Part shown: positions 12,021 through 18,157 of the stretch, in pieces
How the letters are laid out: each line of letters opens with the position of its first letter
How positions within the stretch are numbered: position 1 is the first letter of the stretch
Assembly: GCF_003584565.2 (NCBI RefSeq)
Contig: NZ_CP031010.1
Span: 4,154,001 to 4,218,000, forward strand
DNA: 64,000 bases
Direction: 5' to 3'
Source: Alteromonas sp. RKMC-009
GTDB lineage: Bacteria > Pseudomonadota > Gammaproteobacteria > Enterobacterales > Alteromonadaceae
Notes under the pieces: generated by a model
What the model saw: the letters and a program-made list of their open reading frames with translations, nothing else
Database searches by the model: none
What the model was told of the DNA's origin: nothing
Made by a program: the position numbers and the translations under genes

Positions 12021-13364
12021 ATGACCGCACACCCTCATCTGCCAGTTGCTGAGATAGCGACAAAATTTGATGAAATGCACTGGCCGTCTCTGAACAAAGT
12101 CCATCTGACAGCAGAGGATATTTCGCCGGTTATTAACCAGATAGCGGAACAATCCGGTATTGCACTGACGCAGATAGGTACATCTTATGAGGGTCGTCCG
12201 GTTTCCCGCTTTTCGCTGGGCTCAGGAAAATGCGTCATCCTGGCCTGGACACAAATGCACGGTGATGAGGCTACCGCCACTGCCGCTGTTCTGGACTGGC
12301 TGCATATCTTACTGAACGGGCAGTTAAACGGGCTTCCGGCAAACTGGCAGTCTCAGGTTACCCTGCACGTCATTCCCATGCTTAATCCCGATGGTGCGCA
12401 GCGACGCACCCGGGTCAATGCTCAGGGAATTGACATCAACCGGGATGCCAGAACGCTGCAGAGCCCTGAAGGTCAGATCCTGCAACAGCAGGTAGCCACA
12501 TTGTCGCCGGATATTGCTTTTAACCTGCATGATCAGAACCCCTATTACACCACAGGGGTATCATCGAACCCGGCAACCATTGCTTTTCTGGCACCGGCGT
12601 ACCATGAGGATAAACATGTAGACGGACCGAGGCTTCGTGCCAAACAGCTTATCGCCCATATGGCCGGTGTACTCTCACACTTTATTCCTCAGTGCATAGG
12701 CCGCTATGACGACACCTATTCTTTCCGCTCATTCGGTGACAATATCGCCGCTTCCGGCGCGAGCACGATTTTGATAGAAAGCGGTGCAGCAATTAACGAC
12801 CCCAACCGGCAGATTGCAAGGAAGATGAACGTCATCGGACTGCAAACCGCGCTGGAGAGCCTGCTCACAAACCAGTTCACACAATATTCACTGGCAGACT
12901 ATTACCGCATTCCGGACAACCGCGAGGACGGTCTGTGCGACGTAAAAATTCATGACGTGACGCTGGGGTGTGACAAGCCTTATGTAGCTGACATCAGCAT
13001 AGTGACCGACCGCAAAACCGGAAAAAGCCGCATAGAAGCCATTGGGGATTTGCGCACGGTTTACGGCTTTGAAAACATTGATGCCACGGGACTGGCAACC
13101 CTTCCGCCAAAAGCTTTCACAGTCAGCTCACCTCTGACGCTTAACGATCAGAGTTATAAAGCCTTGCTGTCACAAGGTTACAGTTACTTTGTCGATGAAA
13201 AGGCATTACTCAATATCGACACGACCCTGCCCGTGCTGGTATCAGACACCGATAAAAATACCCCCGCAATTATGCCAGGGGAAGTGCCAAACTTTGTTCT
13301 GCAGCATGTAGCTACGGGCGAGATCAAAGAGGCAGTGATTCTTGGTGAGCGGATTGTTCTTTAA
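12021..13364 (+). CDS. M14 family zinc carboxypeptidase
   Basis: The 447-residue protein carries the M14 metallocarboxypeptidase core: zinc ligands HxxE in MHGDEATA, the pattern LNPDGAQRR, the arginine-bearing GIDINRD, NLHDQNPYY, and a late IESGA that supplies the catalytic Glu region. A further 130 residues of mixed beta character follow. No signal peptide is visible, so it is likely cytosolic. In this context it may trim muropeptide stems or their di-amino acid ends; specificity cannot be read from the sequence. AAGGA precedes the ATG, and the gene is the last one before the integron. Confidence 0.82.
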   Translation: MTAHPHLPVAEIATKFDEMHWPSLNKVHLTAEDISPVINQIAEQSGIALTQIGTSYEGRPVSRFSLGSGKCVILAWTQMHGDEATATAAVLDWLHILLNGQLNGLPANWQSQVTLHVIPMLNPDGAQRRTRVNAQGIDINRDARTLQSPEGQILQQQVATLSPDIAFNLHDQNPYYTTGVSSNPATIAFLAPAYHEDKHVDGPRLRAKQLIAHMAGVLSHFIPQCIGRYDDTYSFRSFGDNIAASGASTILIESGAAINDPNRQIARKMNVIGLQTALESLLTNQFTQYSLADYYRIPDNREDGLCDVKIHDVTLGCDKPYVADISIVTDRKTGKSRIEAIGDLRTVYGFENIDATGLATLPPKAFTVSSPLTLNDQSYKALLSQGYSYFVDEKALLNIDTTLPVLVSDTDKNTPAIMPGEVPNFVLQHVATGEIKEAVILGERIVL

Positions 13365-13388
13365 ATAAACGGGGGCGCACATGGCCGG

Positions 13389-13688
13389 TCACAGCGGTTT
13401 GGTTTCTGCGCCCGCCCGCTGAATTAACTGAGATATTGCAGCGGCGTAAATCATGAAGAACAGAAAAAACGCAACGACTAAACCCGATTGTGCAGCCCAG
13501 TTCTCCTTCGACGAAAGCTCATAAATGAGATACACCGATACAGGTAAAGTCAGTAATTGTTTTTTGCTTTTGACAATTGATTTGTCACAGTAAGTAACGA
13601 CCCTGTTGGCAAGGTTCGCAGAGGAATACAGCGCTACAGGAATTACCAGTAAGCCCACAAACAATATGTCTATCACTATCTCTTTCAA
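13389..13688 (-). CDS. Small membrane protein, distal end of the array
   Basis: This 99-residue frame starts with TTG, with CGGAG nine bases upstream. It has two strong membrane segments, VIDILFVGLLVIPVALY near the N-terminus and LVVAFFLFFMIYAAAI near the C-terminus, linked by a basic loop (VKSKKQ). No family is recognised. It is either the last cassette of the array or the first gene of the left flank: a degenerate attC-like right half lies upstream (about 13715-13781), but no clear attC follows its stop. Confidence 0.55.
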   Translation of the reverse strand: MKEIVIDILFVGLLVIPVALYSSANLANRVVTYCDKSIVKSKKQLLTLPVSVYLIYELSSKENWAAQSGLVVAFFLFFMIYAAAISQLIQRAGAETKPL

Positions 13689-13714
13689 TGTTGAAACTCC
13701 GTTTTCATATCCAT

Positions 13715-13781
13715 TTTCAGCTCTCGTGTTTATGTTGCGGCGACCGCCCCTGCGGTTATAGTTTTGAGCGCCTTGTTAGCT
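13715..13781 (-). repeat. Degenerate or partial attC site
   Basis: The right end TTGTTAGCT (13773-13781) is a good outer box and is preceded by GAGCGCC as in the other sites. It pairs correctly with the start of the next cassette at 14113-14121 (AATCAGCTAA). An internal hairpin of CCGC and GCGG is present at 13744-13755. The left half cannot be matched to the other attC sites, so the site is decayed or of another type. Confidence 0.45.
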
Positions 13782-13783
13782 GA

Positions 13784-14083
13784 TTATTGGCTCAGGAGTA
13801 CAATTAACTCGTCAGGATTTGACAGTATGAATTGGTATGTACTCCCATCATGTAATGAAACTTCGATTGCATCAGATGTGATAGGAAGAATACCCGCACC
13901 TTTACCAGAGCACTTTTCCACTTTTGAAATAAAGCTCCTTTCAATTTTGAGAGGCCCGGGCCCGAAATCTTTATTATATGGGGCAAAATGAACATCAGTT
14001 TCAGTAATCCAAAATTTCCCATCAGCTTTTGCAACACCATTTTGAACTGTGGCTGTAATCGATTTTAGAGTGGTATCTTGCAT
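13784..14083 (-). CDS. Cassette protein, GRAM/PH-like small domain
   Basis: A 99-residue protein with AAAGGA ahead of its ATG. The pattern of short strands, ADGKFWITETDVHFAP, LKIERSFISKVEKC, and DAIEVSLHDGSTYQFIL, looks like a bacterial GRAM/PH-type beta-sandwich, a fold used to bind lipids or proteins. No catalytic motif or membrane segment is seen. It is the sixth cassette counted from attI and is oriented with the array. The fold call is pattern recognition only. Confidence 0.55.
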   Translation of the reverse strand: MQDTTLKSITATVQNGVAKADGKFWITETDVHFAPYNKDFGPGPLKIERSFISKVEKCSGKGAGILPITSDAIEVSLHDGSTYQFILSNPDELIVLLSQ

Positions 14084-14114
14084 ATATATTCCTTTATAAA
14101 TGGATGGACTAATC

Positions 14115-14231
14115 AGCTAAAACCCGCATGCGGGTAAAAAACACTTGGGCAACAATATTAAGCGAAACGCAGGGAGCCCACGTGTTACTGTCCCAGCGAG
14201 CCTGCTAGCATCTTAGTGTCGCTTGTTAGTT
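14115..14231 (-). repeat. attC site of the toxin-antitoxin cassette
   Basis: This 117-bp site has outer boxes AGCTAAA (left, one change from AGCTAAC) and GTTAGTT (right), and shares GTCCCAGCGAGCCTGC with the other attC sites. Its middle differs from the others, so it is a divergent member. The right box complements the AACTAAC at 14845-14851, which marks this site and that junction as the two ends of one cassette. Confidence 0.75.
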
Positions 14232-14287
14232 GTCGTAAACCCGACTTTCGCGCTAACGTTTGTACACACACCCAAACGGAGTTGAAA

Positions 14288-14572
14288 ATGGATACCCGCA
14301 TACAATTCAGAGTCGACGAAGAAACGAAACGTCTTGCCCAATTGATGGCTGAAAGCCAAGGGCGTACCTTAAGTGATGCCTGTAGAGAGCTTACTGAAGA
14401 ACTAGCTGAGCAGCAACGCAAAGTTATGACTCATGACCAATGGCTTACCGAACAGGTTAATGCCGCGTTTAGCAAATTAGATAGTGGAAAAAGTGAGTTT
14501 GTTACTCATGAAGAGGCTTCCCTCGACATGGAAGTAAGAAAGATGAAAATTAGGAATAGAGCCCAAAAATGA
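14288..14572 (+). CDS. RelB/DinJ-type antitoxin
   Basis: The 94-residue protein begins with a ribbon-helix-helix pattern typical of RelB/DinJ antitoxins (TRIQFRVDEETKRLAQLMAE, then GRTLSDACRELTEEL). The charged C-terminal half should wrap the toxin. ACGGAG precedes the ATG at 14288. Its stop overlaps the toxin start (ATGA), the usual coupling of type II pairs. The pair is inverted relative to the array, so it needs its own promoter; 56 bases after the attC are available for one. Confidence 0.85.
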   Translation: MDTRIQFRVDEETKRLAQLMAESQGRTLSDACRELTEELAEQQRKVMTHDQWLTEQVNAAFSKLDSGKSEFVTHEEASLDMEVRKMKIRNRAQK

Positions 14573-14850
14573 TCGTTTGGGAAAAGGATTCATTGGACGA
14601 TCGAGAAGTAATTTTCGAGTTACTATACGAATTTAATCCATTGGCTGCGGAAAAAACTGACGCCATCATTGTGACTAAAGTTGAAAACTTGATACAGCAA
14701 CCGTTGATGGGCGGTGAAAGAGAAGGAATTCCTGGACGGCTTTTAAATATTCCAGAAGTATCAATGGTTGTATCGTACTTTGTAAGAGATGACATAATTC
14801 ACATTCTCAGGGTTCTCCACCAGAAGCAGAAATTTCCTGCAGGCAACTAA
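14569..14850 (+). CDS. RelE/ParE-family toxin
   Basis: The 93-residue protein has the RelE/ParE fold pattern: IVWEKDSLDDREVIFELLYE with FNPLAAEKTDAI as the two N-terminal helices, PLMGGEREGIPGR as the central turn, and the closing strands MVVSYFVRDDIIHILRVLHQ. RelE members cut mRNA on the ribosome and ParE members poison gyrase; the sequence does not decide between them, although the IPGR and RVLHxxQ pattern is common to both. It forms one cassette with its antitoxin and probably stabilises the array. Confidence 0.85.
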   Translation: MIVWEKDSLDDREVIFELLYEFNPLAAEKTDAIIVTKVENLIQQPLMGGEREGIPGRLLNIPEVSMVVSYFVRDDIIHILRVLHQKQKFPAGN

Positions 14851-14957
14851 CGCCTCACTTAGGGGTGCAAACATGCCGGTTATAATCGGAACGAAGTGAC
14901 ACAGCCGCCGTTTTTTGTCCCAGTGAGCCTGCGAGCGACTTTATTTGATTGTTATAT
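14845..14957 (-). repeat. attC site of the fourth cassette
   Basis: This 113-bp site runs from AACTAAC to GTTATAT. It shares the core TATAATCGGAACGAAGTGAC and CCTGCGAGCGAC with its neighbours, but its arms pair less well (GCCGGTT against AGCCGCC). The stop codon of the leftward cassette gene (14952-14954) lies inside the right box. GTTATATGC here complements GCATATAAC at 15352-15360. Confidence 0.85.
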
Positions 14958-15338
14958 GCTTTTGATTGCTGATGATATTTCACTTTCAATGTCTGTAAGC
15001 TTCAACTTACGTTGTTGTAACTCATCTTCACTGAATCTTTTGGTATCTGACCAATATAAACCTTTAAAGAAACATCGTTGGGCTAATTCAGCTTTGTAAG
15101 GGCGAACCTTAATGGCAGTTTCGTTCCACAAGTCAGATAGTTCATGTTCCTTTTCATCTGACTGAGACGCTGGATCATCCAAAACCGACTTCATGTATCT
15201 CGATGTTAAGGAAACTGAGTTCATTAATGCTTTAATTGCGTCAGACTCTTTTTCCGCACGAACCTTCCTTCGATTTAATATCAAATCAAGCCACTTTAAA
15301 GTAATTTGACTTAACGTACTTAAATCTTCGACTTCCAT
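14952..15338 (-). CDS. Cassette protein of unknown function, helical and charged
   Basis: The 128-residue product starts at the ATG at 15338, chosen for the GGAGAG just upstream; a longer frame would begin inside the attC site. It is highly charged and predicted helical throughout (LDLILNRRKVRAEKESDAIK, LQQRKLKLTDIESEIS), with no signal peptide and no membrane segment. No family is recognised. It is the fourth cassette from attI and ends inside its own attC, as compact cassette genes often do. Confidence 0.7.
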   Translation of the reverse strand: MEVEDLSTLSQITLKWLDLILNRRKVRAEKESDAIKALMNSVSLTSRYMKSVLDDPASQSDEKEHELSDLWNETAIKVRPYKAELAQRCFFKGLYWSDTKRFSEDELQQRKLKLTDIESEISSAIKSI

Positions 15339-15353
15339 GTTCTCTCCTATTGC

Positions 15354-15467
15354 ATATAACACCCCACTTAGGGGCACAAACACGGTGGCTATAATCGGAA
15401 CGAAGTGACACAGCCACCGCGTTTGTGTCCCAGTGAGCCTGCGAGCGGCTATAGTGGCTTGTTAGGT
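15354..15467 (-). repeat. attC site of the third cassette
   Basis: This 114-bp site runs from ATATAAC to GTTAGGT. The arms are GGTGGCT and AGCCACC, where the sites to the right have GGCGGCT and AGCCGCC: both arms changed together, so the hairpin is kept. The core TATAATCGGAACGAAGTGAC between the arms is unchanged. Confidence 0.92.
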
Positions 15468-16282
15468 TTTTTCACACAAGCTTGACCAAAAAGTTTGCCA
15501 AATGAAGTTACCTTGACGATAAATTTATCTATTTTGCCAGTAATTCCTAGTGCCTGGTTTTCTGCATTTATCTGATTCAAAAGTGCTCTAACTGAAGGGT
15601 CTTCTTCCAACCTTTTGTAAGAGTCTTTTTGAGTTAGATAAGTCTCTCTCGGTATATCAATAAGCCCTAACCTTTCTAAATTAGTAAGATAACTTGGCAT
15701 TAAATCATTATGCTGAACTTTAGAGTCTACTCCGATATGGGACACAAGTTCAGCAACTATGTTTCTTCCATTAGAATTTTGGACTGAACTACTTATATTA
15801 CAAATAGGTTGAACATTCGCAGTTGATAAAAAGTTAAAAATTTTGGCCTCATCAGAGGATAAATTTCGAATTATTTCGACAAAACCTGGATGTGCAAGCT
15901 TTGACGAGCTTTTATCCATAGCAGAAGCTATTAAATTCGCATAGAGATCAGCTAGAGTTTCTTTATGCCCATTATATTTTAGTGATTCTAAAGCTGGTCC
16001 TGCGACTGAAGGGTCTGGTGTTTGAATATTTTCAATCGGAACCTGCTCGAGTCTTTTTGCAACTTTTGTATTTACAAATTCTTCGATTCTATCCGCGCCC
16101 CAGATCATCGCGCGAATGGGGGCTAATGCTAAATTTACTGTTTTACCAACAGTCTCTAAAGATTTTCCGACTTCTTTTGCAAAGGGTTGAATGGCATCGT
16201 TATAGATTGGAACTTCCTTGACCAAGCCAGTAACCGCATTAATGGTCCCTTCTACATTGTTACTTTCTTCTTTATCAGTCAC
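15449..16282 (-). CDS. DUF4393 (Abi-alpha) family protein
   Basis: The 277-residue product shows the DUF4393/Abi-alpha signatures in order: a tract rich in small and hydrophobic residues (VNLALAPIRAMIWGADRIEE), IENIQTPDPSVAGPALESL, LYANLIASAMD and AHPGFVEIIRNLSSDEAKI, then a C-terminal half with LGLIDIPRETYL. Family members include proteins from abortive-infection loci, so phage defence is a reasonable but unproven role. It starts with GTG, with AGGA about ten bases upstream. Third cassette from attI, in array orientation, next to two HEPN-like cassettes. Confidence 0.8.
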   Translation of the reverse strand: MTDKEESNNVEGTINAVTGLVKEVPIYNDAIQPFAKEVGKSLETVGKTVNLALAPIRAMIWGADRIEEFVNTKVAKRLEQVPIENIQTPDPSVAGPALESLKYNGHKETLADLYANLIASAMDKSSSKLAHPGFVEIIRNLSSDEAKIFNFLSTANVQPICNISSSVQNSNGRNIVAELVSHIGVDSKVQHNDLMPSYLTNLERLGLIDIPRETYLTQKDSYKRLEEDPSVRALLNQINAENQALGITGKIDKFIVKVTSFGKLFGQACVKKPNKPL

Positions 16283-16312
16283 CGAAAAATTCCTGCATGT
16301 TTAGAACTCAAA

Positions 16313-16426
16313 ACCTAACACCCAAATAAGGGGCACAAACATGGCGGCTATAATCGGAACGAAGTGACACAGCCGCCATGTTTGTGTCCCAGCGAGCCTG
16401 CGAGCGACTTAATTTTTTTGTTAGGT
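16313..16426 (-). repeat. attC site of the second cassette
   Basis: This 114-bp site runs from ACCTAAC to GTTAGGT, a perfect outer pair. Arms of 20 bases at 16330-16349 and 16371-16390 pair at 19 positions around the conserved core TATAATCGGAACGAAGTGAC. The stop codon of the second cassette gene (16421-16423) falls within the right box. Confidence 0.95.
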
Positions 16427-17008
16427 AAGTTTGCCTGCAAAGTCACCTTTTATGAATCTTTCGTATACCTGGTGAAGCGAAAAAATCACAGCTTTTATCT
16501 GACCTGGAGGATATTCAATATATGCATAATCGTCTGTTGTGACTTGCTCAAAGAAATACCGACTTTTTACAAACACACTCTTTATACCTTTAATCGTTGT
16601 CTCAAAACTGTTGTATTCACTAGATAACCTATGAGTATCTGGTGGAGTATTAGGCCGATTAACACTCATTCGAATTGCTTGTACATCAATCGGATGACTG
16701 ATATCTCTTACATGCGAGTGATATGCAGCTTCAAGTTCATGTTTCAGGAATGGAGGAAACTCTTCATAGAGCGACAAAAGATCATGTCCACCAGTTACCA
16801 GACCATTTCTACCAACTAACATCAAAGCCTTTAGATAAAGCTCAACCGATAAACCAGAACAAACTAAAAAATTTAGTAAGAAACATGTGTCCTGTCTTTT
16901 GTCTAATTGTTTTCGAATTGAATTGGCTTGATTAGACCATGATACGGCTTGATCAAAAGCCATAGAATGCATTCCTGGATCCAATTGAAAAGCCTTAGGT
17001 TTCTTCAT
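16421..17008 (-). CDS. Cassette protein, HEPN-like
   Basis: The 195-residue product has the middle signature of HEPN-type helical bundles: GLSVELYLKALML followed by GHDLLSLYEEF, about residues 52-84, as in HEPN proteins paired with nucleotidyltransferases. A canonical R-x4-H pair is not found (only RDISH near residue 101), so it may not be an RNase by itself. No membrane segment. The ATG at 17008 is preferred; TTG at 17014 is also possible. Second cassette from attI, between another HEPN-like gene and the DUF4393 gene. Confidence 0.65.
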   Translation of the reverse strand: MKKPKAFQLDPGMHSMAFDQAVSWSNQANSIRKQLDKRQDTCFLLNFLVCSGLSVELYLKALMLVGRNGLVTGGHDLLSLYEEFPPFLKHELEAAYHSHVRDISHPIDVQAIRMSVNRPNTPPDTHRLSSEYNSFETTIKGIKSVFVKSRYFFEQVTTDDYAYIEYPPGQIKAVIFSLHQVYERFIKGDFAGKLT

Positions 17009-17019
17009 ACTCAAAACTT

Positions 17020-17133
17020 ACCTAACACCCAAATAAGGGGCGCAAACATGGCGGCTATAATCGGAACGAAGTGACACAGCCGCCATGTTTGTGTCCCAGC
17101 GAGCCCGCGAGCGACTTAATTTTTTTGTTATAC
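17020..17133 (-). repeat. attC site of the first cassette
   Basis: This 114-bp site runs from ACCTAAC to GTTATAC and is nearly identical to its left neighbour (16313-16426), including the paired arms ATGGCGGCT and AGCCGCCAT. The right box GTTATACC complements GGTATAAC at 17652-17659, which identifies that point as the other end of the first cassette and hence the attI junction. Confidence 0.95.
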
Positions 17134-17637
17134 CCCGGGCGAATAATTTAAATTCGGCTTTTGGCTTAGCGGCTGAATTTTGGTTAGCCTATCATTCAGC
17201 GCGCTATCGAGCATTATCATACCGATATAAAAATAGGTCCTAATGTTATCTGTCGGGAATTTTATAGCGTTCGGAAGCTTCAAGGCCAATAGATACTTTT
17301 TAACTTCTTCATTTTGAAAGTCACAGCCAAAAATATGATGTGCAAAAGCGTTTCTTATCTCTTTTAGTGTATTAAGATCTTGTCTTTCGAGATCTGTGAT
17401 TAACCCCAAACTGAAACAAAGGTTTATCTTTTGAGAGAAGGTACTTTTTTCCGCAATATTTGTTGATGTCGAAATATTTTGGACTAAAAAACTTTTAAGC
17501 AACTTTTCTAACATGACTTCTAGTGCTGCAGATGCAGTTAGAACCCCACTACGTTCCGAGTCATTTAAAACACCTTCCCACAACTCTTTGTTGGAAGTAA
17601 GAGAAATAAAGTCCTCTTTTTTATCCTTAATTTTCAA
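17128..17637 (-). CDS. HEPN/MltR-like protein with RNAFAH motif
   Basis: The 169-residue protein resembles the MltR/HEPN helical bundle: DSERSGVLTASAALEVMLEK (about residues 26-45), FSQKINLCFSLGLITDLERQ (about 67-86) and IRNAFAH (94-100). RNAFAH matches the R-x4-H active-site motif of HEPN ribonucleases (Arg95, His100). It is the first cassette after attI, the position best placed for expression from an integron promoter. Its stop lies inside its attC. The only other well-known relative is the mannitol repressor MltR, and no mannitol gene is near. Family likely; RNase activity inferred. Confidence 0.75.
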   Translation of the reverse strand: MKIKDKKEDFISLTSNKELWEGVLNDSERSGVLTASAALEVMLEKLLKSFLVQNISTSTNIAEKSTFSQKINLCFSLGLITDLERQDLNTLKEIRNAFAHHIFGCDFQNEEVKKYLLALKLPNAIKFPTDNIRTYFYIGMIMLDSALNDRLTKIQPLSQKPNLNYSPGV

Positions 17638-17900
17638 AAAGCCTCCATAGGGGTATAACTACTAAATAGACACACAACGCGGTGTGATCAACCACCCCAC
17701 ACTGGTGTAATTGTCTGTTTTCATTTCTCCAGAATATATCAGAAGCCCCACCTTTAAAAGGTTGTGCGGTTTTGGTGCATTTTCGCGGGAGCGAAATACA
17801 CTGTTTGTGAAGTGAGATGTGAAATGGTGTAAAACCATCCCTCCAGCCAGTTTTCATGACTCTCACATATTCTTAAGCTGTTTTTATTTTGATAAGCATT
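17638..17900. other. attI region of the integron
   Basis: This 263-base region lies between the first cassette gene and the integrase remnant. The recombination point is placed at GTATAAC (17653-17659; GTTATAC on the minus strand), the partner of the first cassette's attC box. The stretch from 17660 to 17900 should hold the rest of attI, the cassette promoter and the integrase promoter. No sigma-70 pair of good quality and no LexA box is seen. A 79-codon frame on the minus strand here looks accidental. Confidence 0.65.
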
Positions 17901-18068
17901 ATGAAATCAAAGTTTCTGCGGGAAGTGTATGAATTTATGTTGTCGAGAGGCTACGCCAAAATAACCATAGAAACGTATTTAACGTGGATTACTGACTTTA
18001 TCCGGTACCACAACTACGCCCGGCCTCAGGAGATGGACGATCAACTTGTTGAGAGTATTGTTCGGTAA
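17901..18068 (+). pseudogene. intI: Integron integrase, N-terminal remnant
   Basis: A 55-codon frame (MKSKFLREVYEFMLSRGYAK, ITIETYLTWITDFIRYHN, ARPQEMDDQLVESIVR) matches the first part of integron tyrosine recombinases in order and spacing, with the typical ETYLxWIxxFIRxHN and RPxEM. Intact IntI proteins have about 320 residues. The frame stops at TAA 18066, and neither the core-binding remainder nor the catalytic R-H-R-Y domain is found in the following 90 bases. The gene has lost its 3' part, and the array is immobile unless helped in trans. Too short for ordinary gene finders. Confidence 0.85.
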
Positions 18069-18078
18069 AGGAGGAAAT

Positions 18079-18103
18079 GGCGTGATCAGTCCCCTGTCAC
18101 GCC
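18079..18103. terminator. Hairpin after the integrase remnant
   Basis: Perfect seven-base stem GGCGTGA / TCACGCC with an 11-base loop, followed on the plus strand by TTACTTT. It lies between the truncated intI and the end of the convergent dioxygenase gene and may terminate either. Confidence 0.45.
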
Positions 18104-18157
18104 TTACTTTATAGAATGAAGTGAGCACTTCCGGCAAGTGCAAAACCTGCCGTCCGG

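Follow-up and report, generated by a model that had tools for sequence, protein, structure and literature searches.

A former integron with a broken integrase gene between a peptidase M14 gene and a dioxygenase gene in Alteromonas sp. RKMC-009

The stretch of DNA analysed here (the window) comprises 64,000 nucleotides of Alteromonas sp. RKMC-009, bases 4154001-4218000 of a 4.93 Mb contig (NZ_CP031010.1) in a two-contig genome of 5.01 Mb that is rated 100% complete. Within it, 4793 bp carrying five attC recombination sites separate a peptidase M14 gene from an intradiol-dioxygenase gene. The intervening DNA is a former integron, in which gene cassettes, a putative attI region and the two ends of an integrase gene (intI) still stand in the canonical divergent layout, all five attC sites lying on the minus strand and pointing away from the plus-strand integrase remnant. 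An initial annotation, made from the letters alone, had called the locus a relict chromosomal integron, a description that these components and their arrangement bear out. On the point that sets mobile integrons apart, the element lies on the 4.93 Mb contig and is therefore not carried by a plasmid of ordinary size. The flanking genes and the recombination features are listed below, each attC site with its score under the covariance model R2 (described after the list) and its folding energy.

12021-13364, plus strand: peptidase M14 gene (PF00246), flanking the element on the left
13751-13781, minus strand: left box surviving from a destroyed sixth attC, pairing with the start of cassette 6
14115-14231, minus strand: attC5, 117 bp, decayed stem, right core TTT for GTT; 51.4 bits; -16.2 kcal/mol
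14845-14957, minus strand: attC4, 113 bp, decayed stem; 79.8 bits; -10.8 kcal/mol
15354-15467, minus strand: attC3, 114 bp; 107 bits; -25.8 kcal/mol
16313-16426, minus strand: attC2, 114 bp; 124.1 bits; -28.2 kcal/mol
17020-17133, minus strand: attC1, 114 bp; 119 bits; -24.8 kcal/mol
17659-17900, no strand assigned: putative attI region, from cassette 1 to the intI start, with the recombination G at 17659
17901-18068, plus strand: 5′ part of the intI pseudogene, starting at the ATG, 55 codons long and closed by a stop in the shifted frame
18056-18114, plus strand: 3′ part of the intI pseudogene, read in a different frame; its product is the tail GGNGVISPLSRLTL, followed by a stop codon
18158-19108, minus strand: intradiol-dioxygenase gene (PF00775), flanking the element on the right

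Two covariance models were used to recognise attC sites. Model R1 was built from the five window sites, so that its finding them is by construction. Model R2 was built from 35 attC sites at 15 same-genus loci, none of them from this genome and each with an integron integrase (IntI) above the cut-off, although the IntI of one source genome, G009, carries a stop codon. R2 recovered five of the five window sites with 51.4-124.1 bits; elsewhere in the window, at E values up to 10, it gave only three weaker matches, antisense to attC1-3, a pattern expected because attC sites are near-palindromic. The whole window, searched with Rfam at gathering thresholds, gave one tRNA and nothing else. The five sites of 113-117 bp that the initial annotation had placed at these positions were thus all matched in a covariance search of the kind that it had proposed as a check. 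Its description of them as well formed proved correct in part. Searching relatives with R1 gave 171 matches, of which 150 were aligned and 133 kept for a comparison of folding, the other 17 lying antisense to the array. The bottom-strand folding of attC1-3 is typical of these 133 sites (mean -24.3 kcal/mol), whereas fewer than 1% of them are as weak as attC4 and 3% as weak as attC5. Dinucleotide shuffling gave folding z values of -4.9, -5.0 and -4.6 for attC1-3, 0.2 for attC4 and -0.5 for attC5. By these energies and z values, attC1-3 are the well-formed sites among the five, whereas attC4 and attC5 have decayed stems; the core of attC5 also reads TTT. The two weak sites are also the two most distant from attI, a position that fits decay of the oldest sites. 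A hairpin at about 13366-13420 was considered as an additional attC and left out, as 33 of 200 shuffles fold equally well and no model matches there.

In a cassette array, the bases after the cut at a cassette start are expected to complement the outer box of that cassette's own attC. Across six cassettes, 46 of 60 positions were complementary, against a mean of 27.8 for permuted pairings, and the true pairing was the best of 720 permutations, being the only one to reach 46/60. The ends of the six cassettes therefore rebuild the outer boxes when circular, in agreement with the circular integration that the initial annotation had read from the cassette ends. Cassette 1 pairs with its attC from 17659. 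The sixth cassette (13773-14120) extends the array leftward beyond attC5 and shares 87.6% nucleotide identity with a cassette in the array of G004 and 88% with one in G281. Within the genus sample, G281 has the RmuC nearest to that of this genome (84%); it was taken as Alteromonas confluentis KCTC 42603 and is called the sister below. The attC of cassette 6 itself is reduced to little beyond the left box (2.9 bits, E 2.3, not significant); G004 has a complete attC after its counterpart of cassette 6. Cassette 5, with parts of the adjoining attC sites, shows 78% identity in G007 and 83% nucleotide identity in the sister. For cassettes 1-4, no match beyond their attC sites was found among the loci compared.

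The integrase gene had been described as reduced to its first 55 codons. That stub is present, but the 3′ end also survives, in another frame, and it is the middle that is lost. The 5′ part matched TIGR02249 at positions 1-48 of 315 (E 9.5e-9) in the profile search that had been recommended for it, and also PF13495 (E 9.1e-10); its likeness to intact intI stops at about 18057. The 3′ tail resembles the C-termini of IntI in 19 of 20 relatives among the matches listed (the best 20), the twentieth, that of G009, having been cut at its internal stop codon for the comparison. In a DNA alignment to the 969-nt intI of the sister, about nt 1-157 and about nt 912-969 are kept. This colinearity of the 5′ and 3′ pieces around the gap indicates that a full intI was once here and that about 750 bp were lost internally. 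The deletion is out of frame, and the part that was lost is where a tyrosine recombinase would be expected to carry its catalytic residues. TIGR02249, run against the whole genome, matched the stub and other recombinase-like open reading frames (ORFs), none above the cut-off. Because only the two ends of intI are left, with no intact core, and no match in the genome passes that cut-off, the element is a former integron. The same remains bear on the alternative that no integron was involved and that an integrase working in trans seeded the cassettes at a non-classical genomic site (attG), so that the locus was integrase-less from the start. Such seeding is known in principle (Loot 2024, as cited in the available part of PMC12444791), but at this locus it is contradicted by both intI ends and an attI-like region in canonical order, and it is highly improbable here.

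That the element was inserted follows from the site in relatives. The M14 gene returned 80 loci, four of which also had an adjoining dioxygenase gene. In these four relatives (Alteromonas confluentis, two Aestuariibacter genomes and Marisediminitalea aggregata), the two genes are convergent and lie 18, 16, 2 and 9 bp apart without the element; a spacing of 2-18 bp there against 4793 bp here identifies the element as an insertion. The search for an empty site suggested in the initial annotation was thereby answered, the sister being among the four. Neither of the two outcomes that the annotation had named as refuting it, a lack of attC model hits at the five positions or the same genes always standing between the flanking genes in relatives, was observed. 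No attC was found by R2 at the 26 of the 80 M14 loci that were searched, and no IntI by the stub query at any of the 80. Among 246 family genomes sampled, the dioxygenase gene was found in 10, as against 67 for the M14 gene.

We put at roughly 0.9 the probability that a complete integron was inserted between the M14 and dioxygenase genes, later lost its integrase and kept its cassettes. This reading is favoured because the attC sites are recognised by a model from other genomes, the cassette ends pair and the intI ends are colinear, and also because two of the cassettes occur in relatives' attC arrays, the empty site exists and the genome holds no IntI above the cut-off. A complete integron, with intI, attI and at least six cassettes, would have arrived between the two genes in this lineage. 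During its ordinary activity, IntI would have recombined the folded bottom-strand attC of circular cassettes with attI, which would place the newest cassettes nearest attI. The out-of-frame loss from the middle of intI would have come next and abolished activity; the distal, presumably oldest, attC sites would then have decayed while the three attI-proximal ones still fold, and the cassettes would have stayed on, possibly expressed, as ordinary genes. Because no other IntI in the genome passes the cut-off, the array is probably frozen.

Several points weigh against this reading. The left edge of the element (13365-13772) has no settled boundary, and five sites are a small number for a gradient of decay. 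The 35 sites of R2 were initially picked using R1, so their choice was not independent of it. Adjacency of the flanking genes is not universal, as G002 has both on one contig 52 kb apart. The surviving 5′ piece of intI, at 55 codons, is too short to settle its origin. Finally, the mechanism of insertion left no trace in the borders that were read or in the ORFs scanned with Pfam and NCBIfam at the locus, which included no transposase (that scan did not take in the wider window). A common 7-base word seen by eye at the borders was considered as a target duplication, judged within chance without a computed test, and is not claimed.

The M14-dioxygenase site is not the usual place of integrons in the genus. 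In a survey of 20 of 23 same-genus genomes (G003, G005 and G023 were left out), fadA and fadB lay downstream of intI at 15 of 20 loci, and intI likewise stands beside fadA in the sister; G002 and G016 share another site, and G009, G012 and G015 have others. In this genome, fadA/fadB (named by Pfam) had no adjoining attC and no IntI match better than E 0.014. An IntI above the cut-off was found in 56 of 59 genus genomes, this one being among the 59, and not in this genome (G000), G283 or G286. The number of working integrases is lower than 56, since the sole copies above the cut-off in G009, G290 and G304 have stop codons. Decay of intI is not rare in the genus. Partial or stop-containing copies alongside an uninterrupted one were seen in G004, G284 and G292.

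How the integron reached its present site can be explained in two ways. The usual fadA integron may have been moved here as a block in an ancestor of the strain, leaving the fadA site empty, an account that we consider possible at somewhat less than even odds. The frequent adjacency of intI and fadA in the genus and the sister and the bare fadA of this genome agree with such a move, as does the attI region, which resembles those of six of 17 relatives (G004, G015, G013, G281, G022 and G019; z 3.9-7.0), all fadA-sited apart from G015. No breakpoint signature was found, however, the 43 bp past the intI tail are by eye unlike the intI-fadA spacer of the sister, and loss at fadA combined with a separate gain here accounts for the facts equally. 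Such a separate acquisition at the M14-dioxygenase site, with independent loss of the fadA integron, is itself a tentative proposition whose chances lie a little below one half. It gains from the stub being just 26/52 identical to the IntI of the sister (the nearest of 21 compared was G022, with 30/48 residues), from the fact that loss happens, G283 and G286 also lacking an IntI above the cut-off, and from five genus genomes (G012, G018, G292, G298 and G301) that each have two; yet the stub is short and decayed, and the attI region is still akin to that of fadA-type integrons. A more far-reaching version, in which no transposon was involved when the whole platform of intI, attI and cassettes moved from one chromosomal site to another within the genus and its integrase was lost afterwards, appears unlikely; if true, the locus would be a natural example of an integron that changed place and froze, the sister species still showing both the empty site and an intact platform.

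The cassette genes of the former integron are the following, from the attI side.

17128-17637, minus strand: cassette 1, DUF4145-like protein with weak HEPN similarity (PF18735 E 2.1e-4, PF13643 E 9.2e-4, both below cut-off)
16421-17014, minus strand: cassette 2, protein without a found relative (PF05168, HEPN, E 0.015, below cut-off)
15449-16282, minus strand: cassette 3, Abi_alpha, candidate abortive-infection protein (PF14337 E 1.8e-58; PADLOC PDC-S47 E 8.9e-60)
14952-15338, minus strand: cassette 4, 128-aa protein matched by neither Pfam nor NCBIfam at E 0.1 (scanned from 15350)
14288-14572, plus strand, opposite to the array: cassette 5, RelB-like antitoxin (RelB models below cut-off, best E 3.4e-5)
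14569-14850, plus strand: cassette 5, RelE/ParE-family toxin (TIGR02385 E 7.2e-12, PF05016 E 3.9e-11, both over cut-off)
13784-14083, minus strand: cassette 6, 99-aa protein, with kin cassettes in G004 and the sister
13389-13688, minus strand: possible seventh cassette, an ORF only, its membership in the array not established

Cassette 3 is a candidate phage-defence gene, a role predicted from the family name only; PADLOC matched none of the remaining cassette proteins at E 0.01. The RelBE-like toxin-antitoxin pair of cassette 5 is oriented against the array, and toxin-antitoxin cassettes occur in Vibrio integrons. The cassette 4 protein has four distant homologues besides itself (50-65% identity), and that of cassette 2 found only itself among 5.8 billion sequences at the search sensitivity used. 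A homologue of the cassette 1 protein, P0010, passes the PF13643 cut-off. A HEPN identity for cassettes 1 and 2 was considered and set aside, as nothing but weak Pfam matches points to it. A 98% identical copy of the cassette 1 protein (P0007) lies on a 1527-base contig of 'ena' source, so this cassette or this species occurs elsewhere. The ORF at 13389-13688 matched no Pfam or NCBIfam family over the cut-off and had no nucleotide match in the compared loci.

A second attC cluster lies in this genome at 2425578-2433309 (L158 9578-17309), beginning after rmuC (PF02646). R2 found seven sites there at E < 0.001 and a weak eighth; two of the eight fold normally and most stems are weak. No IntI match better than E 0.013 was found in the surrounding 24 kb, and the genome search gave none nearby. 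The sister has an intact intI adjoining fadA and dozens of attC sites, with M14 and dioxygenase genes 18 bp apart, and an attC array there likewise starts after rmuC. Contig C14 of the sister carries an array whose far end holds the counterparts of window cassettes 5 and 6, and about 6 kb past that array stands a membrane-protein gene (no Pfam match at E 1e-10) which here lies beyond the second cluster. These shared surroundings indicate that the location of the second array predates this strain. In G012, an intI above the cut-off ends 333 bp from rmuC, so the second array may likewise be a former integron. An IS110-family transposase gene (L158 10020-11186; PF02371, PF01548) stands inside it after the first attC; elements of the IS110 group that target attC exist. 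High-scoring attC sites of the sister are spread over contigs C1, C38, C27, C10 and C14 (L202, L203, L206-L208); its rmuC-side array has no intI of its own at that contig end, and contig breaks hide where the all-array contigs belong. If these belong at rmuC, the intI beside fadA may keep the large sister array fresh in trans.

The locus between the M14 and dioxygenase genes is a clean fossil for which the sister offers both an intact intI and an empty site for comparison, and the decay of an array after loss of its integrase, and which cassettes remain, can be followed here. With only three of 59 genus genomes lacking an IntI above the cut-off, the strain could be used as a natural control in studies of Alteromonas integrons. 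Knowledge of the integron mechanism is unchanged by it.

No title on this locus was among the matches listed in a literature search, and the kind of element is already known: decay has been published for Xanthomonas (PMC12444791) and extra attC clusters for Alteromonas (PMC4119200), both sources being cited here, like PMC9024848, from their available parts. For Alteromonas, PMC4119200 describes an integron (fGI-2, a 'super integron') whose integrase was conserved in the genomes then known, with numerous toxin-antitoxin cassettes as well as hypothetical ones. Two more chromosomal regions described there carry attC sites but no integrase, one of the two being absent from one strain. The present element is alike in genus, in its toxin-antitoxin and hypothetical cassettes and in the occurrence of integrase-less attC clusters; in contrast, the integrase is the only gene that every version of fGI-2 shares, whereas here it is internally deleted and none passes the cut-off. 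Xanthomonas intI has been repeatedly inactivated by frameshifts, stops and large deletions, which left arrays frozen, and clusters occur there at non-ancestral loci, including a truncated intI off the ancestral locus in one pathovar (PMC12444791). A dead intI, an array that is frozen (probably so here) and a position off the usual locus are common to both cases, in a different bacterial group and at a different locus; that moved Xanthomonas locus is ringed by transposases (its authors allow for assembly error), whereas the ORFs scanned here included none. Sedentary chromosomal integrons of Vibrio are stores of phage-defence cassettes (Darracq 2025, Getz 2025, as cited in PMC12444791); a candidate defence cassette and a toxin-antitoxin pair are found here too, in an element that is small and integrase-less. 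Finally, clusters of attC sites lacking integrases (CALINs), defined by at least two attC without an integron integrase nearby, have been proposed to be degraded integrons (PMC9024848). The present locus, with five attC sites and no functional intI nearby, is of this type; it differs in that it still has an intI pseudogene and an attI-like region, so that its origin is visible.

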